This document shows, piece by piece, positions 20,318 to 42,346 of a DNA stretch of 46,433 nucleotides. How positions within the stretch are numbered: the first letter of the stretch is position 1; each line of letters begins with the position of its first letter. A program made the position numbers and the translations under genes. Origin of the DNA: Histomonas meleagridis. Taxonomy: Eukaryota > Parabasalia > Tritrichomonadida > Dientamoebidae. The notes beneath the pieces are model-generated. The model did not search any database. It was not told where the DNA came from and worked only from the letters and a program-made list of their open reading frames with translations. The stretch is from positions 1 through 46,433 of the forward strand of contig WSYJ01000003.1 in assembly GCA_020186115.1 (NCBI GenBank), in the 5' to 3' direction.

Positions 20318-20407
20318 TCTTAATAAAAATAAAAAAAAGAATAGTTGGTTGATTTATTTATATGTTATTCCTGAAAATGATTTAACAAACTTTAAACTTA
20401 TATGTCT

Positions 20408-20911
20408 TTAATCTATAAATTCTATTACATCTGGGAAACTATATTTTAAGTTATATGTTTCACCGTCTTTCTTAACATATATTTTACTAACATAATCATA
20501 AGTATTACTCTTACAACAGAATGCATCAGTGTCTGCTTTTAATAATTCTACTTCATTAGTATCTGTTAATAGTTGTATTAATTTAATTAATTCATCTTCA
20601 TCAGCAATTATATATTTATTAACAATTAATGGATTATTTTCAATAATATCTAAGCATAAAACTAACGCTTGTATTAATAGATCTTTATTATGAATAATTT
20701 GCTGTAAATCGTTATTTAATTCATTAGCTGTTTCGACAGATCTATCTTGAATATTTTCATTATTCTTTTCGTTAATATCTGGATATTTAACAGTATAAGG
20801 ATTTACAACGACATTGACATTTTGATTCTGTTGAGGACTATTAATATTAGTATTAACTTTTGCTAGAAAACCTCTTGAGCACGATAATACATTAGATTAT
20901 GGAACTGACAT
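20408..20911 (-). pseudogene. Unknown Polinton protein, stop at codon 5
   Basis: A frame of 167 codons starting MSVP, then TAA at 20897-20899, then open to the stop at 20408. It includes NTNINSPQQNQNVNVVVNP, a helical stretch LLIQALVLCLDIIENNPLIV, and a C-terminal TYNLKYSFPDVIEFID. No in-frame ATG follows the stop, so as read it makes nothing. I do not recognise the family. It is divergent with 20951-21262 across 39 bp. Confidence 0.6.
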
Positions 20912-20950
20912 AATTTATATAATAAAAAATATATATTTTATAATATTAAA
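20912..20950. promoter_or_regulatory. 39-bp divergent intergenic region (putative two-way promoter)
   Basis: The ATGs of 20408-20911 (-) and 20951-21262 (+) are separated by 39 bases made only of A and T. Two more divergent gene pairs in the element have 40 and 38 bp. No TCAYTW initiator is visible, unlike the host genes in this window. Promoter function is inferred from position alone. Confidence 0.45.
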
Positions 20951-21262
20951 ATGGATATATTTGATTATATAAAAGAATTAAAACTTAAAAAAGTATTTAC
21001 ACTTAAACAAATACCATTTATAGAATTGATCAATTTTTATATAGAAGATTGTGTGATTTATAAATATGTGATAATTTCTGACAGGAATAATATCAAAAAA
21101 TGCAAGAAATTAGGATTGTATTCATTATATGATATACATAACAATATAAATATAAAAATAAAAGAACCATTAGCTAACACTTCTAAAGGACGTTTCATAC
21201 TTATGTTCGATCCTAACAAAAATGATATTACTATAGTTGATGGCGAAGATTACAAGATTTAA
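20951..21262 (+). CDS. 103-aa protein of unknown function
   Basis: An intact 103-aa frame, MDIFDYIKELKLKKVF, with a KCKKLGLYSLYDIHNNIN segment and an ASN-rich end. I do not recognise it. It is the only plus-strand gene in the left part besides the integrase gene, and converges on the major capsid gene with a 19-bp gap. Confidence 0.55.
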   Translation: MDIFDYIKELKLKKVFTLKQIPFIELINFYIEDCVIYKYVIISDRNNIKKCKKLGLYSLYDIHNNINIKIKEPLANTSKGRFILMFDPNKNDITIVDGEDYKI

Positions 21263-21281
21263 TTTAAATATTAATATATTT

Positions 21282-22924: not shown

Positions 22925-22975
22925 ATTATGATATTAAAAAAATATGAAAACATTAGTTAAAAAATGGATCTTCGA

Positions 22976-24696
22976 TTATAAAAATTCATCTTCATCTTCA
23001 AATGTTATAGCAATTGGTTGTTGTGGAGGTATTCTTCTATTAGCAATAGCTTTCAAATCATTATATAACTGAACTAATGAATCAGGTGGTATTTGACTTT
23101 TATGCATTCTAGTGTTAATCCTGCATATTTTTGATTTTCTAATATAAATTGATTAAATCTTTCATCTCCTATATAATTTATTAAAGCGTCAATATTATAT
23201 TCAAGTTGCATTTTTTGATTATTTTGTTCTACTACTTGTTGTGCAATATCTGATTGTAATTGTGTTGTTATAGCTAATTTTCTAGTCGGAGAGAAATTAC
23301 CACCAAACATTTGTTGTTGTATTTCCATTTGTGCTTGACTTTCTTGTGCATGTTTTGTGCTATCATTTATCGCTTTTATATCATCTGCTCTTCTTTGATT
23401 TTTTAATGCTTCTATTTTTGAATTAGCATTTTTCTGTATTTGTGCTCTGTGTTCATCAAAATTTATATATTCTAATTGGGCTTCTTGAGCTATTTTATCT
23501 TCTTCTGCTTTATCTTTTTCTTTTTTTTCTTTTGATTTCTTCTTGACTTTCTTCTGCTTGAACTTGTTTCTTAGCATTCTGTACAATGAATTTTTTATGT
23601 GTTGCACTGATCTCTGATTTAGGACTTATAGCAGTCTGTAGAGTATGTAATTTTTTAGATTCAATTTCTGCTACGACAGTATCTCTCTCTTGCTGAACTT
23701 CCATCTCACGTATTTTATCAAATCTGGCTTTTGCTCTAATACCTGGTTATTGTGCATCTCGTTCTGCCAATTCTTTTTGATAACTTGCTGTTATATCATT
23801 TATATATTTAGCATCTAATTGTTGATAGTCTTCAGGTTTTAACGTAATCATTCTTTTTAATTTTTCTTGCTCATACTGTTTTTTAGCTTCATTCTGGTTC
23901 TTTAATAATTCATTTTCATATCTGGCAATTTCTAACGCTTTTTGAACTTCTGCTCTTTTTTCATTAGCTTTAGTAAAATCAACTGAATTTAATACTTTTT
24001 GAAGAATTTCATTTTCTGAATTAACTTTATCAAGTTCTTTTTGTTAAGTAGATTTTAATCTATATTGCTCATTAGCTTCTATCTCATGTTGTCTATCTAT
24101 AGTTAACATTTTAGCTTGTGCTAATTGTGCTTGTATGATAGCATTTTCATCTTTTAATTTATCTAAGCCTCATTTTAATTGAGTCTTACGTAACTCTTGA
24201 AAAGTTTTTTGATATTGTTTATTCTCTTGCTCATATTTTTTATTATACTCTTGTAGTGTTTTCAGTTGTTCTTCAGCTGTTTTTCTTCTCTCTTCCTCTT
24301 CTTTATATTTAGCTTCTGCTTCTGCTGTTTGTTTTTTCAAATCTACCTCTTGTTTGGCTATATCTTTCTTACGTGCTAATTCTTGTTCTTTTGATCTCCT
24401 TTGATTATTTAACTCTTGTTGTTTAATATCATTATCTAATCTCATTCTATTAATACTATCTAAGTTTACATTAGGAAAAGTATGTGAAATAATAGGCATT
24501 TGACCAATATTATTTAACATTTGAGATCGAGCACCTCTACCCCCTTCAGGGGTAGACCTTGTGTTACCATATAAGGAAGCTTTATTATTAATACTGTTAT
24601 TATTAAAACTATTATTATTGTTAAGTTTAATAATCTTACGTCTAAAGTTTCTTTTTTAACGACTTTCTTATTCCTTTTAATATATTTCTTTGGCAT
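22976..24696 (-). pseudogene. Long coiled-coil protein of the Polinton, broken
   Basis: About 570 codons starting MPKKYIKRNKKVVKK. After a frameshift in an A run near 24645 comes a basic, Asn-rich linker with TRSTPEGGRGARS. Then follows a very long E/K/Q/R-rich coiled coil (LARKKDIAKQEVDLKKQTA, EQLKTLQEYNKKYEQENK), ending with PIAITFEDEDEFL. In-frame stops: TGA at 24170-24172, TAA at 24044-24046 and 23747-23749. Further frameshifts lie near 23520 and 23100, both in A-rich runs. The frame is otherwise continuous, so it is one gene. Function unknown; a structural or scaffolding role next to the capsid gene is plausible. Confidence 0.7.
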
Positions 24697-24723
24697 TATT
24701 TATGTAAAAATGAAATAAACAAC

Positions 24724-25409
24724 TTATTGTAGAGAAGCGATATAAGATCTCCATCCTCTTGGTTTATATCTATACATATAATCATTATTAACGTTATCAG
24801 ATATATTATTATTAACGTTATCAAATATATTATTATTAACGTAACAGATATATTATTACTATCAATCTCATTAATATTATTATCCCCTGCATTACCCCCT
24901 TCAGGGCTAGATCTTGTGTTATCAAGATCATTATATGCTTCATTTTCATCTACTTGTTCATATATATCATTTTTCATATTTTTATATTTACGTTTGAACT
25001 TCTTTTGTTTTGTTTTCAAACGTTCGATTTTAGAATTTAAATCAATAATATGTTGCATTAAGAATGGATCATTTGAAAGATATATTTTATTATTTGGTTT
25101 GTTTATATCCTTTGAATCATTATATTCATTAACAACATTATATGTCATATCACCTGTGTTCTTTTTAATTATTCTAGCATTACCGTTCTTAAAAAGCATA
25201 ACATCATAATATTTATTATCAATACCATTTTTTGCATTATTAATAATAATATCCTTTTCTTCTTTAGTTAATTTTTAAATAGGTTTCTTCTCAATGATTA
25301 TGTGTTGGTCGTTATTTTTAAGGTCATTATTTTAATTAACAACGTTATTAATCTCAAGTTCTGTCTCTGTCTCTGGTGTCAACTCAACCTCTGTGTCTTG
25401 TGTACTAAT
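24724..25409 (-). pseudogene. Asn/Glu-rich Polinton protein, start lost
   Basis: The frame begins ISTQDTEVELTPETETELE, where ATT at 25407-25409 sits where an ATG would be expected. TAA codons follow at 25332-25334 and 25275-25277, then a longer open part (MLFKNGNARIIKKN, a KIERLKTKQKKFKRKYKN helix, TRSSPEGGNAGDNN). After a frameshift near 24845 come repeats of NVNNNISD and the end YKPRGWRSYIASLQ. The TRSSPEGG motif resembles TRSTPEGG in the neighbouring coiled-coil protein. I do not recognise the family. Confidence 0.6.
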
Positions 25410-25442
25410 TTATATAAAAATAAAAATATATATTATATATTT

Positions 25443-25867
25443 TTACATCACTGCAAGTTTTGGTGATGAAATTGATTGTTGAAAAAATTCTTTATTAGAT
25501 AATTTATTATATATATTTTTACCAGCAGTTATGTAAGGTTGTGTTTTATCACTAATTACTTGAGCTTTATCTATAACTCTATCCGTTATCTGCTTGCCTC
25601 TGTCAACAGCGCCTTTAATCTTATCCTTTGATTTACCATCTGGAACCATATCTACTATTTGATCAATTTTATCTGTTATTTACTGTTTTTTACCTCTCTA
25701 ATAGTCTGTATTGTTTGAGGCATTTTACTAATCATTTCAATACCTTTTTTAACATATGGTGATACTTTTCCAATTATTCTCTTTACTGGTTGTGCTATCT
25801 TTTTAACTAATCTTCCTGCACCTTGGATAAATTTCCTAATTCCTCCAAATATATTGTATAGTCCCAT
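25443..25867 (-). pseudogene. Small basic amphipathic protein, internal capsid candidate
   Basis: About 141 codons starting MGLYNIFGGIRKFIQ. The first 55 residues form a strongly basic amphipathic helix set (GRLVKKIAQPVKRIIGKVSP, MISKMPQTIQTIREV). After a frameshift near 25680 the protein continues ITDKIDQIVDMVPDGK, KIKGAVDRGKQITDRVIDKA and ends SSPKLAVM. A short, basic, amphipathic N-terminus fits an internal membrane-active protein of icosahedral viruses with double jelly-roll capsids, but I see no diagnostic sequence match. The start at 25867 was chosen over an upstream ATG because the latter would overlap the integrase start. Confidence 0.55.
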
Positions 25868-25907
25868 TTTAATTATAGAAAAATAACTATTATATGTAAT
25901 AAAAAAT
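25868..25907. promoter_or_regulatory. 40-bp divergent intergenic region (putative two-way promoter)
   Basis: Lies between the ATG of the amphipathic protein (-) and that of the integrase (+). AT-only except for three bases. Inferred from position and from the equal spacing of two other divergent pairs. Confidence 0.45.
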
Positions 25908-27062
25908 ATGCAAACATCTATAAATGATACTATTGATGAGACGCATTTTAAAACATATAAGCATGTGAAAAAACATGTTAAAAACAAACATTTAAATGTT
26001 AAGAGCAAACAAATTAAAGGTGTTATAAAGAAACGTTTAATAGATAAATTTATAAAAAGAAAGGATATTAAACCATATATGATAAAAATATTAAGTAACA
26101 GACCTAATACTTGGTTTCATGATCTGTATGATAACACTACTGGTAGAAATCCACGTTATTGGCATATATTTATTGGAACTAATAATAGATATGTCGTAGT
26201 ATATCCTTCAAATAGTAAATCTGTCAAAGATATTAATTATACATTAAAACAATTTATCAATAAATATCATCCTGTAAAATTAACATCTGATGAAGAACCT
26301 GGTTTTTTAGATAAAAACAATGTAAAATTATTAACAGATAATAATGTTAGTATGCATATTATTTCAGATAAAAACCATAGTAGTTTAGGTATTATTGATA
26401 GATTTATAAGAACATTACGTGATATGAATACTCCAAACGAGAAATCTAAACATCAATCTCATGATGAAAAATATACTTATATAACACCAAAAAGGATGAA
26501 TAAATTTATAAACATATATAATAATAGTTATCATTCTGCAATAAAATGTTCTCCTAATGAAATGTTTAACAATAAAGATTTAGAAAAAGAGTATATATTT
26601 AAGAGTTTAAAACTAGCAGAAAAGCAACAAAGAATAAAAGATTTGATTATTCCAGTTGGTTCTTATTATGTTAGATATATACTACCACGTCATGATGGAA
26701 TACATAAGAAGAGATATCAAATAAGTAGAGAGATGTATAAAATTGATGATAGAAGAGGACACATGTATACACTTATAGCTAAAGATAGTTGTGTTATAAC
26801 TAAGCCTAGATATCAATTAATTGTAGTGAAGAATAATGATAAACATAAACCTAAATTTGCGAATACTATACCTAATAAGTGGAATGGATCTGTGGTAAGG
26901 ATATTATCATATGATAAAGCTAAAAATAAATATACTGTTTTGTTTAAAGTACCAGGAGATAAACCTTACAAAGACATTATACCAGTAAGCTATTTACGTG
27001 GAAATACTCCTCAAATAATGAGTGATATTGAGAAGGATTACTTTAAACAGAGTGATGAGTGA
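25908..27062 (+). CDS. Polinton integrase (retroviral-type, DD35D)
   Basis: An intact 384-aa frame. It would cut and join the element's ends into host DNA, producing the six-base duplication seen here. After a basic N-terminus comes the RNase-H-fold core: first Asp at residue 72 (TWFHDLYDN), second at 128 (KLTSDEEPGF), third acidic residue at 164 (HSSLGIIDRFIRTLRD), exactly 35 residues later. The third residue is Asp where most retroviral-type integrases have Glu. The C-terminal part (about 320-372) has a small beta-rich DNA- or chromatin-binding domain (NKWNGSVVRILSY, YTVLFKVPGDK). It is the best preserved enzyme in the element, with no stop or frameshift. Confidence 0.9.
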   Translation: MQTSINDTIDETHFKTYKHVKKHVKNKHLNVKSKQIKGVIKKRLIDKFIKRKDIKPYMIKILSNRPNTWFHDLYDNTTGRNPRYWHIFIGTNNRYVVVYPSNSKSVKDINYTLKQFINKYHPVKLTSDEEPGFLDKNNVKLLTDNNVSMHIISDKNHSSLGIIDRFIRTLRDMNTPNEKSKHQSHDEKYTYITPKRMNKFINIYNNSYHSAIKCSPNEMFNNKDLEKEYIFKSLKLAEKQQRIKDLIIPVGSYYVRYILPRHDGIHKKRYQISREMYKIDDRRGHMYTLIAKDSCVITKPRYQLIVVKNNDKHKPKFANTIPNKWNGSVVRILSYDKAKNKYTVLFKVPGDKPYKDIIPVSYLRGNTPQIMSDIEKDYFKQSDE

Positions 27063-27145
27063 GTGATGACTGAGTGATCATTCAATGATGAATGAGTCAA
27101 TATGTTATAAATTGATATATATGTGTTACAATGTAGCCTTTATTT

Positions 27146-27717
27146 TTAACAGTTAACTGTTACAAGGCCAACACCAGTAAAGAATATTGTAATCATCCGT
27201 TTTTTTGTATTGATACTTTGTCTCAACCTTGGTGTAACAGAATCTGGATTTGGTGCCCATTGAAAGGCATGATCATAATGCATATTAAACCGACTTTCAT
27301 CAACAGTAATAATATTGGCAAAATTGTTTGGTTCATCTGCTTTAAGTATCTTTAAAAGTTCTTCTGATTCTTGGACCCTTTTTAATTTTTGTTCATTAGT
27401 GAGTAAATGAGGAATCCATTTTTTTGAATATTTATTATAATTCATTTCTAATTAGTTTCTCTTAACAACAAATTTATCAACGTGGAAAGCTTTTGCCATT
27501 ACCTTGGTTGATGCATAAGGTTCATCATTGAAAAATTTAAAATTAATTCCTTAATATCGATTTTTGGCCTTCCACTCCTTGGGAGATCTTCGCCTGTGGT
27601 TCTACCATCCTTCCAGCTTTTAATCCAATATTTTATTTGGGTTTCAGAGTATGCTTCCTCCTTATACATTTCATCTAATTGCTTTTTGATTTTCCTGCAA
27701 CCTTGGCCTTGTAGCAT
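27146..27717 (-). pseudogene. Mariner transposase fragment
   Basis: The N-terminal helix-turn-helix region is present (CRKIKKQLDEMYKEEAYSET, IKYWIKSWKDGRT, GEDLPRSGRP). After a frameshift near 27535 come KFFNDEPYASTKVMAKAFHV and a TAA; then the linker WIPHLLTNEQKLKRV and the first catalytic Asp in NIITVDESRF. The second and third Asp are missing. It differs in sequence from the mariner inside PolB, so it is a separate, older insertion. Confidence 0.8.
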
Positions 27718-27941
27718 TTAAAAATGAATGATATACCTTTGCTCAATAGACATAATACCAATTATTTTAAACGTTCGAAAATTTAAACGTATATAACTTT
27801 TTACTGAATTTATATTTTTTAAAAATTTTTATATACTTAAATACACAAAAGTTTATACTTATATATAAATACCATTTTATGTTTTAATTCATTCTTAATA
27901 AAGAATTACAATAGTGGGTCGGGTACTTTTTCACCCCCCTG
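27146..27941 (-). mobile_element. Truncated mariner-like element
   Basis: The outer end at 27941 begins, on the minus strand, CAGGGGGGTGAAAAAGTACC and abuts a TA. No matching inverted repeat is found at the other end near 27100, where the sequence stops after the first third of the catalytic domain. The element was therefore truncated at its 3' end, or never had more inserted here. Confidence 0.65.
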
Positions 27942-27942
27942 T

Positions 27943-28005
27943 ATCTTGCACAGATGCACAGATAAAATGAAGCCTTTTGTACCAAAGCGCCTTTTTTGAA
28001 CTTTT
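27943..28005 (+). repeat. Internal degenerate copy of the TIR
   Basis: ATCTTGCACAGATGCACAGA matches 41304 onward in the right TIR (same orientation). The following about 35 bases are recognisably related but diverged (CCTTTTGTACCAAAGCGCC versus ACTTTTGAACCAAATGGTC). It lies between the dead mariner and the primase-helicase gene. Confidence 0.7.
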
Positions 28006-28063
28006 TTGGGGTTCTAAACTTTTTATGAAAAATAGATAAAAATAATATATATAATCATCTAAT

Positions 28064-30649
28064 TTATAGTTTAACTAGAATATCTTCTTCTTCTATTTCA
28101 TCTTCTTCACATTCCTTATCAAAATATAATTTATAATCAATAATATTATATAAATCAGGTATCTGTTCTCTTGATTTTAATGTATATATTCTGATTCTAT
28201 TTTTATTTACAGAAGTATAATCATATAATTCATTATGTTCATCAATAATTTTTTGGTATTGTCTTGAAGTTATTTGTTTAACATCACAAGTTGAATTTAA
28301 TTTCCTTGCTAAACCAGTTGACTTATATCCATCCACATGTATATCATCTAATGCGATACCATATTTAAACTTATAATAATTATCAACTATATATCTGTCA
28401 ACAGCATTCAGATCAAGGTATTGTCTTTCCAATTGTTCATTATATTGTGTATTAGTATCAGCATTAATCTCTCTAATTAATTTTTCAGGGTTAAAATCAC
28501 TAACATCTATTTGTGTTAACATGTAATGTAATAATAACTCCATATATTCCCTTACGTAAGTTCCTTGCTTAATAGGTTGTATTTGTTTACATAAATTATC
28601 AAAATATTCATCATCGCCACACCTACTATTATTGATTTAATAATAGATCAATTTTCTATCACCTTTCTCCTCTTGTACTGGATTTGGATAATTAGTAGTC
28701 ATTGAATACTTAGCCCAACTATCTATTTCTATTTGATCAACACCTTTAGTTTCTTGAACAGTCTTCTTTTGAGTTAACTTACTCTTAATCTTACCAAGAT
28801 ATTTGAACTTTTCAGTTGCTTCTGGAGGCTCATTAATATTAATAATTAAATATCTGCCTATTAATCCATTAAATTTACCAAATACTTTATCCAAATCATC
28901 AACGTTAGCTAATGCAAAGTTTCCTAACAATTCACAGAATACTCCTATAGAAAATGATTTACCAGATCCTTGAGCGCCATATATTATTGGCATAGTTCCA
29001 TTTTTAACAGTGATATTTTGAAATATATTACCCCACCATTTCATGAAATAATCAAATTTCTTCTCATTATTATTACAGACAATTGTTTTTATATGATTTA
29101 ATAATGGTTCTAATTGTGAAAAATCATTACTATCAGATTCATTATACTTAAATCCTTGAAAGATATTAATAATTCTTTCATCATAACCCTCATATAATTT
29201 AGCTTCATCATAATCAAAGTATTTAGAATATTTCATAACTACTTGAGCTAATGATATATTATTATTGTTATTAATAGGTTTATAATGTTCTAATTTTTTC
29301 ACTAATTTTTCATCATTAGTTTCTTTAATATACAATTGATCATTATGGATAGTCTTTAAAAACCATCTATCTTCAACAAATCCTACAACACCTCTCAAAT
29401 CATTTAATAATTTGGAAAAATCTTTGATATTATGACTTCTATTAATTATATCAAGAAAATTCCAATTACTGTAATTAATATTTATAGTAAAATCTATTGA
29501 ATCCTTACCATATTTTAACAAATATTCATTTCTAATATCACTATCTAAATGTTTAATTAATGAATAAAATCATTTATTATTATATTCTCTTTTATAATAT
29601 ATATTTAATATATCATCCACACTTTTCACTGGGTCATGCTGATGAACTCTAGTATCATACCATTTAATAAAGTGTTTTCTCAAGAAATCTTTACTGTATG
29701 GAGAATGATTATATAATGGAGCTAATGTTACCATATAAGTGTCATGATCAGGTGAGAAATTACTTAAAAATTCTTTCATTTCAACATTATCAAATTTAAT
29801 TAATTCATCATTAAATTCAATATCATCTATTTTGGTATTTCTTATTTCCTTATCATTTCTTTTAACAGCTCTTTCTTCTTTGACTCTCTCTTCCTTAGTT
29901 TTAATCGTTGGAAATACAGTCAACCACATATCTTTATTGATAATTGATTCATTACCACGTATTTGAACTATTTGAGTATCTGGAGTTAAATTATTTAATA
30001 TATACCCATGATTAGGTCTATTTTGTGGATCATTTTCTTTAAATATTTTATCAGATAATACATGTCTAAATACTTGTCTGCTATTTAATCTATAAACATT
30101 TGGATCACATAGCTTGTGAACTGTATATCTCCAGAAGCCTTTTTGTATAGTATATTTCATTATATTCATCAAATCTGTTGAAGATATAGATGTAGTATAA
30201 TATACAATATGCATTGAAAGATAATGGTTTTCATTTGGTATTAATCTATAACCATATTTTTCTATATCTTTATTATTACAATATCCACCAATAGAATAAT
30301 CGCCAAATACAGCTTTTAATGAATCTAACCAATCAATTACTTCATTATATTCTACTTCTGATGTGATGCTATCAAAATCAAAATATAAATGGACATATTC
30401 TTGTTTAATTATAAATTCATTGAATCCCTTAGAGAACTCATAATTGTTTATATCTTCAAATGTGATTTCATTAGGTACCCAATGATTTGAATAACCAAAC
30501 TTAAGCCCATATTTTATAGTATTGCTTTTATTATTTTTATTTACTATAAAAGAGTAAGGCGTAGAATCATCATTTTCATCATTTGATAAATCTGAAAGTT
30601 CATTAAGTACTTCTTCAAAAACATTACTTTCTTCGCGGTCAAAGCTCAT
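28064..30649 (-). pseudogene. Archaeo-eukaryotic primase fused to SF3 helicase, two stops
   Basis: One continuous frame of 862 codons broken only by TGA (29570-29572) and TAA (28637-28639). Primase core: DFD at about residues 91-93 (YVHLYFDFDSI), the SMH motif at 145-147 (YLSMHIVY) and the CDPNVYRL...RQVFRH motif at 181-196. Helicase: Walker A GAQGSGKS (about 558-565), a Walker-B-like RYLIININEPPE (about 600; Asn-Glu instead of Asp-Glu) and motif C YSMTTNYPNP. This is the primase-helicase layout of virophages, Polinton-like viruses and large DNA viruses, and would prime and unwind DNA for replication. Its ATG lies one base after the fibre B stop. Having it beside a protein-primed PolB in one element is unexpected. 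Confidence 0.85.
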
Positions 30650-30650
30650 C

Positions 30651-31934
30651 TTATTTTATACAAATTAAAAAAGTAAAATTGATACCCAAAAAGAACACAT
30701 TTCCTGTAATAAATACTAAACAACCTATTTCAAAATTATTAATATTATCAGTTTCATCTATAGGAGCATTATGTATAATAGTTTTATTTATTTGTCCACT
30801 TCCACTGCTTGATATTATTGCTACTCTATACTGAATATTAGAATAATGCCAAAATCCTAATTCATTTTGATAAGAAGCTATCCTCCAAGTATATGTTTCT
30901 GGTGCTTCTGTTGATTGATCATGATATACGAAATCTACAAATCTACCAGTTTTTAAAACAGCATTTTGATAAGGAACTATATCATTTGGTTCATGGGTAT
31001 GGGAACTAGGTGTAAAAGTTGATGGTCTCTTAGTAATATCATTATAACTATGAGTATGACCATTTACTGAGAAAAAACTTACATTAATATTATTAATAGA
31101 ATTACAATTTATATTACCATTATTTACATTAAAACTAATATTACCATTATTATTATTAAGTTTACCAAAATACATAGTATTACCAGAAGTTCTTATTCTC
31201 CAACTATAATCACTATCATCATTACTATCATGAAAATCAATGTACTGTCCAACTTCCATAACACCATCACTTTTAATAGTAGCTATACAAGGTATAGTGT
31301 TTAAATAATTTCCTGCTGAAGAACCGTTATTAATATAATAATTGTTAATTTTACCATTAATAGTAGTAATATCATTATTAAATTCTGTATGAATATGATT
31401 ATTTAAAGAAAAATTATCAACAGGTATATCATTAATATACTTTACTTCTAGATTACCATATATTTTTAAATCGTTATTAATGATATTATGAGTATGATAT
31501 ATTAGACAAAAGTTATCAACATCTATATTATTAATATAATTACAATTTATATTACCATTAACAGTTAAATTATTATTAAATTCTGTATGATTGCTTAGTG
31601 CAAAGTTATCAGTGTCAATATTATTAATAGTATTACATTGAATATTACCGTTAACAGTTAAATTATTATTTATTATTTCATGAGTATGATTTATTAATGA
31701 ATATTTATCATCGTGGTTATGTGTTATTAAAGAAATATTATCAGTGTCAATGCCATTAATGCTATTACAACTAATATTACCGTTTCTAAATATACTTACA
31801 TAATTACCATCACAAACTTTAAATTTCAAACAAGTATAAATGTTATCATCAGAACCTACGTAGTGTTCTATTACACTACAATCATCTCCATATGGTAATA
31901 CACCTATTTCCATTCTGATAGAATTACCTGTCAC
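30651..31934 (-). CDS. Fibre-like protein B with His-x-His repeats
   Basis: An intact frame of 420-427 residues. The first in-frame ATG is at 31911-31913; a GTG at 31932-31934 may be a mutated start. The N-terminal half repeats a unit of about 30 residues: NHTH, a short linker, NNNLTVNGNIQCN, then TINNIDTDNF. HNHDDKYSLINHTH also occurs. The middle has a GQYIDFHDSNDDSDYSWRIR block, and the C-terminal part RFVDFVYHDQST with a hydrophobic end. His-x-His-Asp-Asp-Arg-Tyr repeats and YIDFH blocks are typical of phage tail fibres, where the histidines bind metal in a trimeric shaft. I therefore infer a trimeric attachment or decoration fibre. It lies 26 bp after the related fibre A and 1 bp before the primase-helicase. 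Confidence 0.7.
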   Translation of the reverse strand: MTGNSIRMEIGVLPYGDDCSVIEHYVGSDDNIYTCLKFKVCDGNYVSIFRNGNISCNSINGIDTDNISLITHNHDDKYSLINHTHEIINNNLTVNGNIQCNTINNIDTDNFALSNHTEFNNNLTVNGNINCNYINNIDVDNFCLIYHTHNIINNDLKIYGNLEVKYINDIPVDNFSLNNHIHTEFNNDITTINGKINNYYINNGSSAGNYLNTIPCIATIKSDGVMEVGQYIDFHDSNDDSDYSWRIRTSGNTMYFGKLNNNNGNISFNVNNGNINCNSINNINVSFFSVNGHTHSYNDITKRPSTFTPSSHTHEPNDIVPYQNAVLKTGRFVDFVYHDQSTEAPETYTWRIASYQNELGFWHYSNIQYRVAIISSSGSGQINKTIIHNAPIDETDNINNFEIGCLVFITGNVFFLGINFTFLICIK

Positions 31935-31960
31935 TTAGATCTATAAATAAACAATCTTTT

Positions 31961-34494
31961 TTAAATATTTGTATCATCTGAATATTTACTACAATCAATA
32001 TTGATATTACGACTTGCTGTCAATATTCTATATGAGATATCATTACCTACTAATAAATCTTGTTCAATCTTAGTCCATTCACCATATTCATTATATGATA
32101 TTCCTGTTAAAGCCTTATTTATATTAGTTGAATTATCATTTGTTACATATTGACCATGGGTATGAGTTGTTAAAGAAAAGTTATTAGTATCAATACCATT
32201 AATAGTTGTACATTCTATATTACCATTTATTTTTAGATCTTGATTAATTGACGTATAAATTTCATAAATATCTTCTTCCTCGATAGTTTCGACATAATCT
32301 TTATTATAAGTAATACCTGTTAATTTATTGTTAATATTAAATATATCATTACTTATCACGGATAATTCATCTAAATCAATACCATTAATAGTAGAACATT
32401 CTATATTACCATTAACCTTTAAATCTTGATTTATATTAGTATATATTTCATAGATATCTTCCTCCTCCTCTTCTACATTAATAATAGTATCAATTAAATA
32501 CTTATGATATGTAATACCCGTATAATTATTTAAATCAGAGCTTATTAAGTAATTATCATGAGTATGATTAATAAATCTTTTATATATCTGACAGTCTACT
32601 AATGCCATACCTAATTCATTAGTTCTCTGTCCTTTAGAAACATCTTTATAATAATACTTCAAATTTTTAAAAATTACATTCATTTCAGGGAACAGATTTA
32701 TTAAATAATTATATTCATTAAAACTATTATCGATATTAGTGTCATCTGGGCCAACTAAATCATCTAAGTTCTCGTCAGTTGATATATCATATTCATCAAA
32801 AACAACGCTTCTTACAGTTGGTATAGGAATATAACCTCTTGCTCCAGTAAATACATTTTTCAATCTACTTATTAACGAAATTGCCCAGGAACTATTTTTG
32901 ATACTATTATATACTTTACTAGCTAGTTCAGCGAACTCTGCTAAAGACATAGCTACAGAAAAAGCATCTAATAAATATTCTAGCCAATTCTTTTTGTATC
33001 CTTCACCGTCTTCTCCAGGAGCTCTTGTCAATAGTTCTTGTATTTCATCATCATCTATAATCATTTGTTTTGTTAAATAGTATTCTGATGTTAATACTCC
33101 ATCAACATTAACTATACCATAAGTATGTCCACTATCTTCTAACATGATACTATTACCATTAGGGAAATTAATTAATATATTGTTTTCTGTAATACCATCT
33201 TCTGTAGTATTATTATAAGTTGATATATTAACACCATTCTCAAATAATATTACATCAGAAATAGTTAAAATACCATCTTCTATAACAGCTATATTATTAG
33301 TATCAATTTCATTAATTTTACCATTAACAATAAGATCTTGATTAATTAATGTGTATTTTTCATAAATATCCTCCCCCTCATTAGTTTCTAATAATTCTTC
33401 GTTATAATAAATACCAGTAGTATTGTAATGAGTATGATTATTTAAAGAAAAGTTGTTAACAGATATATTATTAACTGTATTACAAGTAACATCACCATTA
33501 ACTTTTAAATCTTGATTAATATTAGTATATATTTCATAGATATCTTCTTCCTCAGTAGTTTCTATATAATCCTTATTATAACTAATACCAGTTAATTTAT
33601 TATTAATATTATCTAAATTAGCACTTGTTAAATAATCACTATGTATATGATCTATTAATGAATATCTATCATCATGGTTATGTGTTGTTAAAGAAAAGTT
33701 GTTGACAGATATGTTATTAATACTATTTGCTGTTATATTACCATTATTACTAAAACTTATTGTAGACCCACCTTTTGCTTGAAAACTCAGTGTATCAGTT
33801 AAAGCTCTAATTATTCTCCAAGTATTATCTTTATTATAATCATTATTATTATGAAAATCAATATATCCTTCTACTTCCATAACACCATCACTTTTAATAG
33901 TAACTATACAAGGTATCGTTATTGTTGCATTAGAACCTCCACCTATACTGTTACCAATATAATATCCGTTATAACTACTTGCTACTAAAGAGCCGTTAAC
34001 AAGTAAATCGTTATCAATTTTTTTGTGTGAATGGTTTATTAATGAATATCTATCTCATGAGTATGGTTCTTCAAAGCAAGATCTTCTGTAGAATAGCCGT
34101 TAATAGTTTCTATCAATAAATTACTTATGCTAACATTATTATTTTCTTCATTAATTTTAACAAATTCTTTATATAAATCTAATACTTTATCAATATTACT
34201 AAACATTTGTTTTAAATAGACATTATTCATAATATTTGATTCTGTAATAATATCACTTACTAATATATCATTTATTAAAACAAGATTTTTAATGCTGTTA
34301 TCTAATAGATTAATTATTATACGATTTCTTCCATAAGTAAATATAAATGATTTATCTATACTATTCATTGTTAATGAACATATACCATTGCTAATAGTAT
34401 CTGCTGTTTTGCTATGATTAGAATATACAACACTATTTTTATTTAATAATGATTTTACTATATTTTCTAATCTTTCGTATTGTTGAAGTGTCAT
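31961..34494 (-). pseudogene. Fibre-like protein A with His-x-His repeats, one frameshift
   Basis: About 840 codons from MTLQQYERLENIVKSLLNK to SKYSDDTNI, with one base lost near 34050 between KNHTHE and the next frame (RYSLINHSHKK). Visible parts: an N-terminal helical region; GYIDFHNNNDYNKDNTWRI, closely matching the block in fibre B; five or more repeats of TGISYNKDYIET, EEEDIYEIYTNINQDLKVNG; HNHDDRYSLIDHIH and other His-x-His sites; and a helical insert (LLDAFSVAMSLAEFAELASK). It contains no nonsense codon in 840 codons, in contrast to its neighbours. The two fibre genes look like an old tandem duplication. An attachment or surface-fibre role is inferred from the phage-fibre resemblance. 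Confidence 0.7.
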
Positions 34495-34532
34495 TTTATT
34501 ATATAATAAATAAATATTTTTATTGTTAATAA
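34495..34532. promoter_or_regulatory. 38-bp divergent intergenic region (putative two-way promoter)
   Basis: Lies between the ATG of fibre A (-) and that of the 236-aa protein (+). Almost pure A and T. The third such spacer of 38-40 bp in the element. Confidence 0.45.
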
Positions 34533-35243
34533 ATGTTAACTGAAAGACAACTTAATTATCGCGTGTCTGAATTATCCATAGAAGAAAATTATACTAATTT
34601 AGATATAGAAGAATATGAAAGAGATTTAACTAATGTAAATAAAAATGTTGGTTATACATTTCGTTATCCACAACGTTGGTTAGAGTCTCCTAGTCAGAAT
34701 AAAGTAGTTGGAATAAGAAGACTCGATATAATACCTACTTCTCACGTAATTTCATTAAAATGTGTTATTAAAGATGGAACAGAAAACCCACCAGAAACTA
34801 TTGTTAATATTCAAATTATGTATCATAATACTTTATTGAAAATAATTACTTATTTAATCAATTCTCTTAATAATGCATTTACTAATGATCCCAGTTTTGA
34901 ATACATATATAAAGAAAAAGGAAAACTTATGATTAAATGTGATTATGAATTCAAATTTGTTGATCCTATTAATGGCGCATATGATACCAATATAGATAAT
35001 TTCTTAATATTATTAAATCAAGATACTACAAACGATAATTATAGTATATTAAATAATCTCTCTAATGGTAAATCCTTTACTAATGTATGGGATAGAGAAT
35101 ATTTAGAATTCCATGCTTCATTCAGTGATAGTAAAAGAAGATTCATTGGCATTAAGGGTGATTTTTATGAAAAACCAACTGTTATATATAATGCACCTTC
35201 TGACGGATCTACTTTTAATATAAAATTTACATCTGATGGATAG
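34533..35243 (+). CDS. Candidate minor capsid (penton-like) protein
   Basis: An intact 236-aa frame: MLTERQLNYRVSELS, then VGYTFRYPQRWLESP, VVGIRRLDIIPTSHVISLK, a beta-rich middle, and LEFHASFSDSKRRFIGIKG near the end. The predicted content is mostly beta strand, and its size suits a single jelly-roll minor capsid protein. I recognise the overall pattern from Polinton-type elements but cannot name the family securely. It is divergent with fibre A across 38 bp and convergent with PolB across 145 bp. It shows no stop or frameshift. Confidence 0.5.
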   Translation: MLTERQLNYRVSELSIEENYTNLDIEEYERDLTNVNKNVGYTFRYPQRWLESPSQNKVVGIRRLDIIPTSHVISLKCVIKDGTENPPETIVNIQIMYHNTLLKIITYLINSLNNAFTNDPSFEYIYKEKGKLMIKCDYEFKFVDPINGAYDTNIDNFLILLNQDTTNDNYSILNNLSNGKSFTNVWDREYLEFHASFSDSKRRFIGIKGDFYEKPTVIYNAPSDGSTFNIKFTSDG

Positions 35244-35388
35244 AATCCTATATATCCTATTTATTGTAGATTTATCATACAATTAGTATTCATGTATAAT
35301 TATAAGTAAACAATAGTATTAAAATGAACAAAAAAAATATAAGCGGCATCTAATGACAGCTGGTCTGAAGACCTTAATATTTTTATAA

Positions 35389-36057
35389 TTATTTAAATGT
35401 TTTTATAGGATCATTACTCTCTGAACATATATTTTTATATTTATTATTAACATGATATATATATTCATTATCAATATTTTTGGCAATCCAATTATCAGCT
35501 GATTTAATATATATTTCTATAAATATATGCTCTATCTTAAACTGACCTATTTTATCGCCAATATATCCTAAGTTTTGTAATTTGATATAATTATCTTCAG
35601 ATATCAATAAAGAATCAACTTTTGAATAATATACTTTAGATATTAAACTTTTAATATGATTCATTTTATCATTAAAATTATTTAATACTGATCTTGCAAA
35701 TTGTGGATAAGTAAAGTGTTCTCTATAAGGTTTTATTGTATATACATAGTTATCTTTATCATATTTAATGACATAAGGTGCAAATCTATCAATATATTTA
35801 TCAACATTAGTCTTTAACTTTTTATTAAAATTAGGTGGTTTTCTAATAGATGTTCCTCAACAAGTATTCATCATAAATTTTAATATAGTAGCCAATTTAT
35901 CATTACCAGACTTTTTAGCTTTCATTCTTAAGTTATATAATACTTCTATAAGTTGCTTTATTTTAGTATTTTCTCCTTTAAAAGCACCGTTATCATCTGG
36001 TTTACCTGTAGGTATTGATATTACAGATGACATATAAGCACCGTTTAAATCTATATA
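35389..36057 (-). pseudogene. Protein-primed DNA polymerase B, palm part
   Basis: The C-terminal third of the polymerase, cut off from its N-terminal part by a mariner. Motif A reads YIDLNGAYMSSV. Motif B is AKKSGNDKLATILKFMMN followed by TC and then TGA (35857-35859) where the Tyr of the NxxYG motif is expected. Motif C appears as YYSKVDSLLIS; the first Asp of the usual DTDS is replaced by Lys. The frame then runs open to the stop at 35389 (ESNDPIKTFK). It would extend DNA from a terminal protein primer. The nonsense codon and altered motif C mean it is inactive as read. Confidence 0.8.
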
Positions 36058-37334
36058 GGGTGGCCGATAAGTAACCGGAATTTCCCCCCACATAATATAT
36101 ATCAACAAAATAAATATATATATAAATAGCTTGTATAAATTATTTTTATTGTTATGAGTTTGAGAATTTAATTCCTTTAGATCATAGAGAAAAATCGAAA
36201 AACGGCCACTGTACGTTAAAAATTGTACGTTAAGCAGATCGAACAAAGGTACGTCATCATGTATCTTCTACGCAAAAACATGAGGATTCTTGATATAGTC
36301 AAGGAACTCAAAGATGTATATAGGGACGAAGCCCTCTCAAAAACCCAAGTGTATTTTTGGGTTAAAGAGATAAAGATGGGCAGAGAAGATTTAAATAATC
36401 TGCCTAAGGAAGGAAGACCGATAGACGAACAATTAATCGTCTCAATCCAGGATCATCTCAAAAAGGAGCCATTCTCCTCATCTCGTAAGATTGCACTTGA
36501 GTTACATGTATCACATGATACAATATTAAGGCATCTTACTCAAACATTGGGATATAAATGTATGAATCTTCGATGGGTTCCGCACTTTTTGACCCCCGAA
36601 CAAAAAAGTTGCAGAGTAAAATTGGCGAAGATTCTTATCCCAATTATTAAACAAGAAGAAGCAACAGGCTTCGAATTCTTATTAACAGGGGATGAGTCAT
36701 TGTTCATATATCGCTACCAATATAAAAGTAAGTGGGTAGTTGATGTAGATGATCTAGAAGAAAGGGTTGAAGAAACCAATTTTTCAAAAAAGACGATGTT
36801 TACAATTTTTGTCAATGGAAAGGGGGTACAATTAATCGACGTCAAACCAACACACGTTAAAATTGACGCCAATTATTTTATAAATTACATTTTAATGAAT
36901 ATCGAAGGTTCTGAACTTATGAAGAAATCAAGAAATATGAAACACAAGCTCCTGGTGCACTACGATAATGCACCCTGTCATTCGGCGAAGACCGTTAAGG
37001 AGCATCTCAGACATTCGGGCCTCATTATTCTGTCTCATCCCCCCATATTCACCCGATCTAGCTATATGCGATTTTGGCCTGTTCGGAAGTATGAAGAGCT
37101 CTCTGGCTGGAGAGGAATTTGAAACAGAAGTTGATCTAACAGAAGCCATTAAAAAATTTTTCGCCTCAAAAAGTGAAGATTTTTATAAATCTTTGCTTCT
37201 TGAATTAATACGTCGACCTGAAGCCCGTGTCGCTAATAATGGAAACTACATTCAATAAACAATAATTTTTTTATTTATATACTTTTTTTCGAAATTCAAC
37301 ACACATCAAAATTCCGGTTACTTATCGGCCACCC
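36058..37334 (+). mobile_element. Mariner transposon inserted in PolB
   Basis: A 1277-bp element with perfect 26-bp inverted ends at 36058-36083 and 37309-37334, beginning GGGTGGCCGATAAGTAACCG, and a TA at each border (36056-36057 and 37335-37336). It holds one transposase gene. Inserted between the exonuclease-side part and motif A of PolB, in the opposite direction. The perfect ends imply a young insertion. Confidence 0.95.
36259..37258 (+). pseudogene. Mariner transposase (DD34D), one-base frameshift
   Basis: Starts MYLLRKNMRILDIVKELK with a helix-turn-helix region, the linker WVPHFLTPEQKSCRV (about 107-121) and the catalytic triad: Asp145 (LLTGDES), Asp236 (VHYDNAPCHS) and a third Asp 34 residues on (SPDLAICDFGLFG). 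The frame breaks at a run of six C at about 37037-37042: one extra C separates LSHPP from YSPDLAICD. With one C fewer the protein is full length (about 333 residues) and all three Asp are present. The ATG at 36259 was chosen because the frame upstream has no ATG. This is either a sequencing error in a homopolymer or a recent inactivation. Confidence 0.9.
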
Positions 37335-38875
37335 TATATAATAATATTTCCCAGTTAAATGTATTTGTTGCCATATTATTTTTAGGAAATATACATTCAT
37401 TACGTATTTTATTAGCTATATTACCTGATAACTCATATACACCATCAAAACACCCATATTCATACATTATTTTCAACATTAAATCACTATATCTATAGTA
37501 TTTGACAACATCTATTTTATGGGGTAAATTTTTTAGTTATATTTATATCTATTAAATGTTGTAATTCATTTATTCTGTATTTTATTTTTTTATCATCATC
37601 TAATTCATAACCAAATAACTTTTTGCCGTGTTTCATTCTTTTGACGCATTTTGGTATATTCTTCTTATCAGGCACGGCTACTAGCCTGTAGCTGTTATAA
37701 GGTTTATTTACTGTTTTATAACTCCAGCATAATTTATTATAAGTATTAATATTTATAGGTTTTAATAAATTACATTGTTTTATAGTATCAATTAAATAAT
37801 ATATAGATATAGTTTTATCAGCATGTTCACCCGAAGGGTTCAAGCCAATAAATTGACGTTCTATAATCTTATTTTTACTATAATTTTTAATACTATCAAT
37901 TGATATATTAACATTTTCATTTAACATATAATGATTATCTATAATGATTAATTTTATAGTTCTATCAAATTCTTTTCCATAATCTCTGTGAGTAAAACCT
38001 TTATTAGCCATATATCTAATATTAATATGAATTTTTAATAAATTAGATATATCTTTTACTTGTTCTAATGGAACTGTTCTAGTATTTATAAATAATGATC
38101 TTAACATATTAATTTCATTATCTGTAAATAAATTACTTGCAATAAATGATTGTATCAAACAAGACTCATTGATATATTCATTGTTGACGTTGTTGAAAAT
38201 ACCATATTTTGTAAGATCTATATCAGTAGTATTAATATAAGGGAAGAATTCTGGATTAACTCTTCTACCGTTCTTTAAATCTCTGAATTCAGATTTCATG
38301 AATTTAATATTTTTGAAAGTGTCTAATGCCAAAGTATTACTGTCACCAATATTATCTTTTTCATTAATAATATCATATAAAAAGTTAACTGTATTCATAT
38401 TTCCATGATAGTAAGATATATTATTATCATCACTAATTACAGTCATTCTAATGTCTTTATTTATCTTAGCACCAACTGCCTTAATAGCATATATTAATGC
38501 ATATAATATATCTTCTTTATTACTAAGGTCTTTGTTGTAAGTAAAATCTTTTTGTAATAATAATTTCTTAATTAATTCTTTAGTAATATTATTAATGGAT
38601 TTATTCTGTTTTACAGGTTTCTCTACAGGTTCATCTTCAGATAATGCTATATTATAATAATCATTAAATGGATCACTATAATTGTATCCACTACGTTTAT
38701 TGTGTTTTATTTTATATTGTAATTGATTAACTGATAAACTAACATTTTCATTACTCATTTCATCATTTACCTTATATTCAGTTTTAGTATTAATATGTTG
38801 AAAATTGTCTGGTAGTGTATAACCATATTTATTAAACAATTCTATTACTTGTTTTGTTGTTAGCTTCTTTGGCAT
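37335..38875 (-). pseudogene. Protein-primed DNA polymerase B, N-terminal part
   Basis: A 452-aa frame from MPKKLTTKQVIELFNKYGY ends at TAA (37517-37519). After a frameshift, VVKYYRYSDLMLKIMYEYG and FDGVYELSGNIANKIRNE follow up to the mariner, matching the end of the exonuclease region and the stretch just before motif A. Exonuclease motifs I and II are not visible, so some 200 residues may have been deleted near 37515. Residues about 235-320 contain NESCLIQSF (Cys239) and KLIIIDNHYMLNE (His315), resembling an OTU-type cysteine protease fold fused to the polymerase. That reading is an inference. The start is 72 bp from the divergent gene at 38948. Confidence 0.75.
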
Positions 38876-38947
38876 TATATTTATTAAAAATAAAAAAAAA
38901 TAAATTTTATATAAAAAAATATATTTACAAAATAATATTTAACACAG

Positions 38948-39719
38948 ATGTTTTATATGGTTAAAATGTTTAATAAAATTATAGATTATACTATATCATC
39001 ATATGATTATGAACATTATAATAGAATTAATGTAAACCTACCTGGACCACCTACTCGAAAATCTAAAATGATAATAACATCATTAACAACTAAATGTTCT
39101 ATAGTCGTAATAGAAAAAGATGATTATATACAGATTAATGATACAAAATATACTTTTAATAAACAATATACTAATATTAATAGTGCATCATTTTTTACTA
39201 TTATTAAATGAATTAATAATTGATACAGGAATTACTACAGAAATCGATGAATGTGAAATAATAATATTTTCCAGTGACAATCAATTTACTATTAATAGTT
39301 GTAGTTATAATATATTACAATTATCAGGTTTATATGATCAAGTATTACCATTATCTGCTAGTTATAATAATGAAAATAATAAATATGAGATTTAAGCAGA
39401 ATCTGTTGGAAATTATCTTTCAACACCCATATTATATATAGTAAGTAATTTAGGAAATAGTAGTTATAGAAATTGAAAAAATAATCTAAATATATCTAAA
39501 ATTATATTACGACTAAATAATAGTTTTCGTGCTAATTATCCTATAATAGTTAATAATGCTGATTTTGCTGTAGAAATGAATACTAACGACTTATCACATT
39601 TAGAGTTAACACTTGTTGACGCTAATTTGCATGAGATACACTTATTAAACCCAATGTATATAACTATAAGTGTTAGTGGTGTGTCTGATGATGATGTTAT
39701 TGAAAATAATAATCAATAA
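38948..39719 (+). pseudogene. Candidate minor capsid protein, broken
   Basis: About 256 codons, starting MFYMVKMFNKIIDYTIS. One extra T in a T run near 39190-39195 breaks SASF/LLLLNELI. In-frame TAA at 39393-39395 and TGA at 39474-39476 follow. The end reads FRANYPIIVNNADFAVEMN and DLSHLELTLVDANLHEIHL, then MYITISV. A closing block with L-VD-N-x-I-L followed by a T-rich strand is seen in beta-rich capsid-associated proteins of Maverick-type elements. This is recognition of a pattern, not a secure family match. Confidence 0.5.
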
Positions 39720-39779
39720 TCTTGATACCCCCGAAGGCTAATACAATAAAGTTGTTTATTTTATTTTTATTTAAATATT

Positions 39780-40679
39780 ATGAGAAATTTAGATAATAAA
39801 TTTAAAGAGATAAATAATAATTTCAATAAAATAAGCAGAATGAATAAAGAAGTATTAGATAATGCTTTTATTAAACCCATACATGAAAAATATCCTTTAG
39901 CACAGAATGGAATATGTGCTTTTATAGCTCCAATGGGCAGTGGTAAGAGCTATACTTATTTAAAATTATCTGCTTATCAAAAAGTATTATTTAATGAACC
40001 TTTCTTTGAATTAATTGTTATATGTTCTACTAGTAGCAAGTTTGATGAGACAGTATATAACTTTAAAGTATTAATTTAAAAGAGTAAACTTGTTGCTATA
40101 AAAGATACTGATTTATTAGATTATCTAAATAAATATATGAGACGTGTTTTGAAATATAATTCTATTATAAAATATATCAACAGTAATTTTGAAGAAATCA
40201 ATGAAGAATTAGCAAGAATAATGAATGAACATCGACTTATTATGAATCAAGATAATAAAAAACTATTAAAATATATATCATTTGAATTATTTAAATATAA
40301 TTGGAAAACTTATTCTCACAGAATGTTATTAATATTAGATGATTTTGCTAACCATGTATTAATAAAGAATAAAGAAACGGATTTAATGAGGTTATTAAAG
40401 TAATTAAGACATTTTAATATTAATGTTATTATATGTGTTCAAACAGTAAAATCTATACCAAAAGATTTAAAAAAAACATTAAGTGATATAGTATTGTTTC
40501 CAGGTATCTCTAGAGATGATTTTTATGAACTTATTAAAGAATCTCCTGCCAGTTGTTATGATGTAGATAAATTATGGAAAAAATATAGTAAGATCAAAGA
40601 TCAACATAGTCGATTTAACATATGAATAGAAGCTAGAAGAATTACTATAACATTACCGACCTCCGAGTCTAATGAATAA
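39780..40679 (+). pseudogene. FtsK/HerA-type packaging ATPase, three stops
   Basis: One frame of 300 codons without frameshift. Walker A is APMGSGKSYTYLKL (about residues 49-62), and Walker B is RMLLILDDFANH. A later segment INVIICVQTVKSIPKDL carries the Gln sensor strand of this family. These ATPases pump DNA into capsids of double jelly-roll viruses, and every complete Polinton has one. In-frame stops: TAA at 40077-40079 and 40401-40403, TGA at 40623-40625. The order (minor capsid candidate, then ATPase, same strand, 60 bp apart) suggests joint expression. Confidence 0.85.
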
Positions 40680-40738
40680 ATTTAAAGACCATTATTTTTT
40701 TTTATATATAATTTAATTTTTTTATTTCTATAAAATAT

Positions 40739-41206
40739 ATGGAAGATTTTGTATATTATTTAAAAGGTGATTATAAAAATAAATATAATATGGTTAATTC
40801 TAAATATAATTATAATTTGTTGACAAAATTTGATAAAAAAGCATAAATAAATTATCAACAATATGTTATATTTGTTAATGTTAAATATTATGATGAAAAA
40901 TTGAATATAGTTAATTCTTTTAATATAAAATTTGTTAATGATGAAATGCCCTCATGTAGTATAAAAAAATTACATAATATAAATCCAAGTAAATTATATT
41001 ATAAATTTCTTGCTGCTAAAATTGATATTATTAAAAATATCCAGGAAAAATTATTATTAAAATATAATAAAATTAATGATAAAATTAATGATTTAAATAA
41101 ATATTTAGATAAGCATAATAAAAAGATAGCAAATCATAATAATCTGGAATATAATGAGTCTATTGTTAGTGATGACGTTGTAAAACATGTAAAATTTGAT
41201 ATGTAA
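40739..41206 (+). pseudogene. Unknown Lys/Asn-rich Polinton protein, one stop
   Basis: 155 codons starting MEDFVYYLKGDYKNKYN, with TAA at 40844-40846 and an otherwise open frame ending VVKHVKFDM just inside the right TIR. The second half is a basic coiled coil (KYNKINDKINDLNKYLDKH). I do not recognise it. Confidence 0.55.
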
Positions 41207-41516
41207 AAGCATTATATACATAAAGTCTAAATATATATATTTTTGTAAAAGCATACTATTACAATGATTCAAGCTATTTTAATAGTATTTTTGACCTTCC
41301 CAGATCTTGCACAGATGCACAGATGAAATGGTCACTTTTGAACCAAATGGTCATTTTGAGACTTTTTTTAGATTTTATTTTTTTTAAGATATATATACTT
41401 ATATATAATTTAAAAAGAAAGTATTTTTTTTTATAGTAAACTGGTCCTTTGGACAAACACACCGAGCGAAGCGAAGTGCACATAGAAACGAAGTGGAGAT
41501 GTGCTGTGTGTGTGTG
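41202..41516 (-). repeat. Right terminal inverted repeat of the Polinton
   Basis: Reverse complement of 19814-20129 with one substitution and a slightly shorter CA run. All A and T homopolymers inside match in length, which argues for recent copying or gene conversion. Confidence 0.95.
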
Positions 41517-41522
41517 TCCATC
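41517..41522. other. Right target-site duplication of the Polinton
   Basis: TCCATC, duplicating 19808-19813. Its reverse complement lies in the codons for Val-Met-Asp of the interrupted transposase. Confidence 0.75.
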
Positions 41523-42340
41523 ACAAGAACAGTTCCATCTGGGTGACCAAATTTTTGATCGAAAGAAGTTGACCACTGTTCCATCTACTCAAGCCCCATT
41601 CCAGAAACCTTTTTTTTCAGTACTATCTTGTTGCCATTTACTTTCTTTGTTAGTTGCGGGGTATGCCGAATAAAGTATGGGTTAATGGTTCCCGATGCAG
41701 AGATGGCAACAACACCTGTGTCTCTTCTGTGGTTTCCTTCTGAAACAACCCCAGAATCCATTGATTCTGGGTCAACATAGGTGCGGGAAGCTACGGAACC
41801 ATTCCATAGCCCAGTTTCATCCATCATGAAAATTCGTGATTCAAGAATATTATAGCTGTTAACATATCCGGTTACAGTTTCCCTGAACGTTTTCACTTCT
41901 TTTTCTAATGTTTCTCTCACCTCTTTTTGGTTGCGTTTTTGGGTCCTCCTACTTGGCCAACCATTGTTCTTCCAGAATGTGCTTATGAATCCATTAGATG
42001 CATTTGGAACTCTTCCTTCTGTTACTTCTTTGATTGCCTGACGAGTCCACTCAATTGACACTTCTAGATGTTGATTACGTCTTTCCTTTGCTAACATAAT
42101 GAGTCTTTCTTTTTCTTCTGGAGAGATTGAACACCCTCTTCGAGGATGCACTTGTCTTTGGGATTGTGCTCGAATGGACATATCTTCATGCATCCATCTG
42201 TACATGGTAGTTTTTGAAACGGGAGATGAAATGCCTAATTCGTCCCATGTCATTCCTTTTGAACGCGCTTCTGATATTTGGTTCTTGATTGATTCTTTCC
42301 CTTCAGACTTGATGAATGAAGCTTTGATGTGGAAATTCAT
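41523..42340 (-). pseudogene. Tc1/mariner-superfamily DDE transposase, N-terminal part
   Basis: Starts MNFHIKASFIKSEGKES at 42340, directly after an initiator. A helix-turn-helix (SKGMTWDELGISSPVSKTTM) is followed by a basic region and the first catalytic Asp at residue 174 (IFMMDETGLWNG). A TAG at 41585-41587 (codon 252, in MGLE*MEQW, probably once Trp) is in frame, and the protein runs on to FGHPDGTVLVMD, where the Polinton begins. The missing C-terminal part is at 19531-19813. Together they make about 370 residues. Confidence 0.85.
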
Positions 42341-42346
42341 TAATGA
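42341..42346 (-). promoter_or_regulatory. Trichomonad initiator (Inr) of the transposase gene
   Basis: TCATTA immediately before the ATG on the minus strand matches TCAYTW. It supports the start at 42340 and suggests that this transposon gene used host transcription signals. Confidence 0.5.

Follow-up and report, generated by a model that had tools for sequence, protein, structure and literature searches.

A single fibre gene within a Maverick insertion

The 46,433-nucleotide stretch of Histomonas meleagridis DNA analysed here (hereafter the window; contig C3 of a 43.3-Mb assembly) comes from a parabasalid parasite of poultry and carries, on the minus strand at 30651..34494, a single fibre gene broken into three open pieces and enclosed in a Maverick/Polinton insertion of 21.7 kb. 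The first-pass annotation had recognised His-x-His (HxH) motifs (HNHDDRYS, NHTH), NGNIxCNxINNI repeats and YIDFH blocks, all of which do lie on the minus strand where it had placed them, and had assigned them to two fibre genes. What the region holds is three consecutive pieces of one gene. At another locus (L009), an undamaged frame 1,551 aa long contains all three in order (residues 7-147, 234-880 and 974-1426 for pieces 1, 2 and 3, respectively), and each of 20 relatives from metagenomes (P0006-P0025) is a single protein, their lengths being 1,078-1,234 aa.

Piece 1 (34039..34494, minus strand, 151 aa) comprises the N-terminal domain and the first HxH motif, and is 58-84% identical to five relatives (84, 83, 61, 58 and 58% to P0001, P0004, P0005, P0010 and P0024, respectively). 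Piece 2 (31961..33880, minus strand, 639 aa) holds a YIDFH module, HxH repeats and a middle domain, is 76% identical to residues 234-880 of the long protein P0001, and has 99 matches in its own genome (a lower bound, with 69 of 244 candidates scored); the conserved middle domain within it (32519..33271, minus strand) reaches 95% identity to P0001 residues 440-690. Piece 3 (30651..31934, minus strand, 427 aa; 65% identical to P0001 residues 974-1426) consists of HxH shaft, a second YIDFH module and a truncated end, in which 37 aa (30687..30797, minus strand) are all that matches the C-terminal knob, the rest of it being missing. Pieces 2 and 3 each have a single YIDFH motif. HxH motifs number 1, 5 and 6 in pieces 1, 2 and 3, where shuffled sequences average 0.08, 0.25 and 0.72 (maxima of 2,000 shuffles: 2, 3 and 5, so that the single motif of piece 1 is not significant alone). 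In total, the window pieces have 12 motifs against 1.05 expected, and P0001 has 21 against 1.84; a spacing of exactly 11 residues was found for 9/20 intervals in P0001 and for 16/24 in P0030 (a protein with tail-fibre PHROG matches).

The domain order is kept at the 16 other long-class loci that were read (N-terminal domain in 15/16, middle domain and knob each in 16/16); several of these are themselves in pieces, one knob piece is inverted at L020, and L009 is the only one of the 16 at which all three domains share one frame. The window copy is a relic: besides its fibre gene, those for the putative capsid protein, primase-helicase and polymerase are interrupted as well. Some of the frame breaks may be assembly errors, as erroneous consensus sequence can give such genes a fragmented look (PMC10120064). 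Loss of most of the knob goes beyond such breaks.

The Maverick setting proposed by the first-pass annotation is borne out by the boundaries of the element (19815..41517, left end accurate to within 1-2 bases). It is delimited by terminal inverted repeats (TIRs) of 316 nt that are 100% complementary (left 19814..20129, plus strand; right 41202..41517, minus strand), and flanked by two copies of the target-site duplication (TSD) CCATCA (19809..19814 and 41518..41523); since a seventh base (C) matches at both copies, duplications of 6 and 7 bp are indistinguishable (a length of 6 bp is given for Polintons; PMC10045372). At a related empty site on contig C61 both flanks adjoin (87% and 86% identical) and CCATCAC is present once, whereas it stands twice around the window element; the insertion is therefore genuine, with target duplication, and its host is a DDE-transposase-like gene. 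This host gene (window 41518-42370) has related copies on contigs C99 and C61, the latter with the empty site. The complete identity of the TIRs in an element with several broken genes may go back to recent transposition of an already damaged copy, to repeat correction or to an assembly error. Inside the element, positions 27927-28054 match the inner part of the TIR at 72%, and similar stretches lie on C120, C88 and C81.

Family, conservation and selection

The matches of piece 2 were merged into 40 fibre loci (95 of the 99 rows, four short-class rows being left out), and at 32/40 of them (scored with 40 of 70 neighbour rows) a gene like the divergent neighbour of the window fibre (34533..35243, plus strand) lies no more than 2.5 kb away on the other strand. 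Seen from the other side, a fibre adjoins 21/25 of the neighbour-gene matches longer than 550 bp. Homologues in the same place, which the first-pass annotation had suggested looking for in other trichomonad Mavericks, are thus found in other elements of this genome. The neighbour gene had no significant match in Pfam or PDB profile searches, and its product is possibly a penton or minor capsid protein. Many fibre loci lie less than 35 kb from a contig end (on C1, C24, C36, C42, C70, C86, C90, C92 and C101), which may mark subtelomeric sites or assembly breaks, and two fibre fragments of equal score on opposite strands (C97:24599-25211 and C97:47884-48496) form a mirrored duplication.

Among the 20 proteins from metagenomes, conservation is 0.95-1.00 over the N-terminal 550 and the C-terminal 109 residues, and 0.65-0.80 in the gapped part between them. 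The protein is built of a conserved N-terminal domain (as represented by piece 1, and probably the capsid anchor), an HxH shaft, exchangeable modules and a conserved knob. Six of the relatives (P0007, P0010, P0011, P0021, P0023 and P0024) stem from metagenome contigs whose length (19.7-20.9 kb) approaches that of the element and which are possibly free genomes. The fibre P0044, assigned to a 'Bacilli bacterium' metagenome-assembled genome, probably belongs to a mis-binned protist element; in P0161 a fibre knob is joined to a phospholipase-D protein, probably on a chimeric contig. The name of T. vaginalis stands on none of the matches listed, most of which are nameless (two of the three relative searches scored ~8,000 candidates each, and in one of these two the best 120 of 152 matches were listed); scans of viral contigs with P0010 and P0005 returned no relative.

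A second, shorter fibre class of ~640 aa (P0002, P0003) is present in the same genome. P0003, read from contig C17, is identical to an NCBI H. meleagridis protein, and on this contig the distance from the short fibre to a gene for DNA polymerase B (PF03175, E 1.6e-23; the clear polymerase match is confined to C17) is ~7 kb; a search of two stretches of C17 revealed no terminal repeats. The short fibre, of the same build as the long class, probably sits in a second Maverick family of H. meleagridis. Knobs of the short and long classes share 47-58% identity; a knob is also carried by P0168 (46%), the front part of which looks coiled-coil by eye, and the knob can therefore be regarded as a movable part.

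Selection was assessed by the ratio of nonsynonymous to synonymous substitution rates (dN/dS) of the open frames as they stand, with badly aligned columns omitted. Over 55 non-independent pairs the ratio ranged from 0.13 to 0.68 (median 0.20), and in a frame control of 28 pairs the median was 0.20 in the true frame versus 1.29 and 1.75 in the two wrong ones. These sequence comparisons indicate that the fibre gene was kept functional by purifying selection while the elements multiplied.

Phage-like repeats and the C-terminal knob

Judged by sequence, the repeats resemble phage tail proteins, and the phage-fibre likeness claimed by the first-pass annotation is clear for the relatives of the window gene. 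The long P0001 matched phrog_28169 (E 5.3e-9), and the short P0002 matched phrog_5231 (1e-10), the tail family phrog_988 (5e-8) and the minor tail family phrog_14 (2e-5). By tblastn, P0002 matched 289 of 50,697 phage records (286/289 with actinobacterial hosts by name), with a best E of 2e-16 among the 20 rows listed, of which 19 are named tail or minor tail protein; a reversed repeat region (150 residues, against 643 for the forward query) matched zero phage records. On the other side, neither window piece 3 nor P0001 retrieved a phage record at 1e-5. Piece 3 gave weak matches (phrog_5231, 7.6e-6; phrog_14 minor tail protein, 1.8e-4; the tail collar fibre PDB 9d93, 1.2e-3), and pieces 1 and 2 had no PHROG match below 0.03.

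A PDB profile search with query A2 returned nothing. Pfam matches to the three pieces or to P0001-P0003 (the best being Lip_prot_lig_C, 1.3e-4) all fell below their cut-offs and were taken as chance, as was a globin-like PDB match of piece 2 (E 2.2e-3). A match to an unrelated host family, which the first-pass annotation had named as an outcome that would overturn its proposal, was looked for, and no significant one was found.

In structure predictions (of monomers only) the C-terminal domain was the only well-modelled part of a relative, while the shaft had a predicted local distance difference test score (pLDDT) below 50; an AlphaFold2 model of P0024 (mean pLDDT 33) was not used. The fold of the knob model resembles, at 10-16% identity, capsid-associated chains of tailed viruses (9kmg, 9kzj, 8qsy and 5wk1), which we take to be 'gpD-like', as well as a C-terminal fragment of gp12 of phage phi29 (3gqh and 3suc), a tail spike that self-assembles and undergoes self-cleavage of its C-terminal part. 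By sequence, the knob had no PHROG match below E 0.15 and no Pfam match.

Other genes of the element and its flanks

A Maverick is expected to encode a protein-primed DNA polymerase B, an integrase of retroviral type, a double jelly-roll major capsid protein, a capsid protease and a packaging ATPase. The names given here to the genes around the fibre are tentative. A putative primase-helicase, split here, occupies 28064..30649 (minus strand; DUF5906, E 1.3e-11 in 28637-29521), its primase part being presumed from a motif. A putative integrase (25908..27062, plus strand) matches rve with 21.6 bits (E 2.7e-4, below the curated cut-off of 32.6 bits) and has copies of 86% and 85% at L027 and L028; gene order varies between elements, as the integrase adjoins the neighbour gene on C78 (L027 5704-6846), unlike in the window. 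The split gene at 21282..22519 (minus strand), which from a motif and its size may encode the major capsid protein, has an undamaged relative of 536 aa at L040, for which there was no Pfam match and one PDB match at chance level. The segment 35857..36051 (minus strand; DNA_pol_B_2, E 0.0072, below the curated cut-off) belongs to a putative gene for DNA polymerase B, with motifs that we presume to be those of a polymerase; this gene is interrupted by a mariner/Tc1-like element (36052..37340, plus strand) with perfect inverted repeats of 32 nt and helix-turn-helix and DDE transposase matches, all below cut-off.

Outside the element, window positions 1-10800 hold ~10 kb of satellite of the TTGTGTGTGTGGTAC type together with a 19-bp relative, which produces huge spurious open frames. 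Closer to the insertion, positions 14144-16300 and 17495-18103 contain ankyrin-type genes, in which tandem repeats of 20 bp occur, along with a leucine-rich repeat open reading frame; for these the names ankyrin-type and BspA-like are presumptive.

A probable attachment fibre and its alternatives

Taken together, these observations are best explained if the region is the decayed remnant of a single Maverick gene that encoded a long fibre for attachment of the virion, a reading to which we give a probability of roughly three in four. Constant ends around an exchangeable middle would fit a protein that is anchored in the virion at one end, trimerises at the other and binds receptors through its modules. 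Under such an arrangement, three chains would zip up from the C-terminal knob, which would nucleate the trimer as a folding chaperone or as the tip; the HxH motifs of the three chains may bind metal and so lock the shaft (metal sites are present in T4 gp37); the N-terminal domain would dock on a capsid vertex, perhaps on the product of the neighbour gene; and the variable modules would attach to the surface of the target cell.

The alternative that survives best, although we consider it improbable, is a capsid-decoration or vertex-cement protein, seated on the capsid by its C-terminal domain with the rest projecting outward and without a receptor role. It would account for the origin of the knob's best fold matches (9 of the top 11 rows are from capsid entries, three of which have decorating or stabilising proteins in their titles) and for the knob being among the two most conserved parts, but it sits poorly with a long, repetitive HxH shaft of tail-protein type, with an N-terminal domain conserved as much as the knob, and with the occurrence of a similar end domain in the phi29 tail spike. 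A bolder extension of the attachment-fibre reading, to be taken as a long shot, is that parabasalid Mavericks exchanged the Peptidase_S74 (S74) chaperone for a decoration-protein-like knob, now found in two Maverick families of one host, and that the phage-type shaft binds gut bacteria eaten by the trichomonad, so that virions enter riding on prey (a mode of entry proposed for the virophage DSLV2; PMC12724248).

It is very unlikely that the gene is a host adhesin or a domesticated copy and not a virion part: the genome does contain many broken elements, and we know of no virion from H. meleagridis, yet the fibre keeps the same element gene at its side at four fifths of its loci (32/40), and relatives occur on metagenome contigs close to the length of an element. 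Two separate fibre genes, as the two long open frames of the window copy would have it, are scarcely credible beside the single frame at L009, the 20 single-protein relatives and the fixed domain order at 16 other loci. Phage contamination of the assembly, which has a precedent in five genes of the H. meleagridis genome paper that were traced to phage contamination on a chimeric contig (PMC8529796), can practically be dismissed in view of 40 merged loci over many contigs, the GC content (fibre 0.243, element 0.253, flanks 0.244 and 0.260), and the TIRs, TSD and empty site.

The attachment-fibre reading bears on whether trichomonad Mavericks still make infectious particles. A fibre gene under purifying selection in many copies argues for passage as virions that need to attach to cells, and the fibre itself offers a testable attachment protein.

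Comparison with known systems

The first-pass annotation knew of no Polinton gene of this kind; phage-like fibres have, however, been reported in many Polinton-like viruses, and collagen and phage tail repeats (PTR) in 20 T. vaginalis elements (PMC12220804). Like the Histomonas fibre, these proteins are long, modular and encoded in elements of protists (those of T. vaginalis with phage tail repeats), but they carry S74, PTR, collagen or laminin domains (PMC12220804), whereas the Histomonas fibre has none of these by Pfam and ends in a domain of another fold. Specifically, P0001-P0003 had no match to Peptidase_S74 (PF13884), collagen or PTR (PF12789) at E up to 1. The absence of S74 fits the same source, in which this domain is widely present in Polinton-like viruses with the exception of those of parabasalids (PMC12220804).

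The tripartite tails of the virophage DSLV2 (PMC12724248) are likewise gp37-like and belong to a Polinton relative, and the trimer formation and receptor binding described for them are what we propose for Histomonas; they differ in being encoded by three short genes (196, 205 and 247 aa) whose products form a heterotrimer, as opposed to one long protein. With phage tail fibre and minor tail families (phrog_28169, phrog_5231, phrog_988 and phrog_14) the Histomonas fibre shares HxH repeats, often 11 residues apart, but no common N-terminal domain or knob sequence was found. The H. meleagridis proteins that NCBI names 'head-to-tail connector', 'tail fiber domain-containing' and 'minor tail protein' (P0003, P0041, P0042 and P0043) correspond to the shorter fibre class, and no link to Mavericks was seen in the database listing.

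We found no report of a fibre in a Histomonas Maverick in the open-access literature; PMC10045372 was alone in naming both 'Histomonas' and 'polinton', and the words 'fiber' and 'tail' do not appear in the portion available. As far as our searches of that literature go, novelty lies in the anatomy of a single gene, in the two length classes, in a knob that resembles decoration proteins and in the evidence of selection. The knob would explain how the protein folds without the S74 chaperone of most other Polinton-like viruses. The Histomonas fibre is a variant of the phage-like fibres already published for these viruses, with an unusual end domain.
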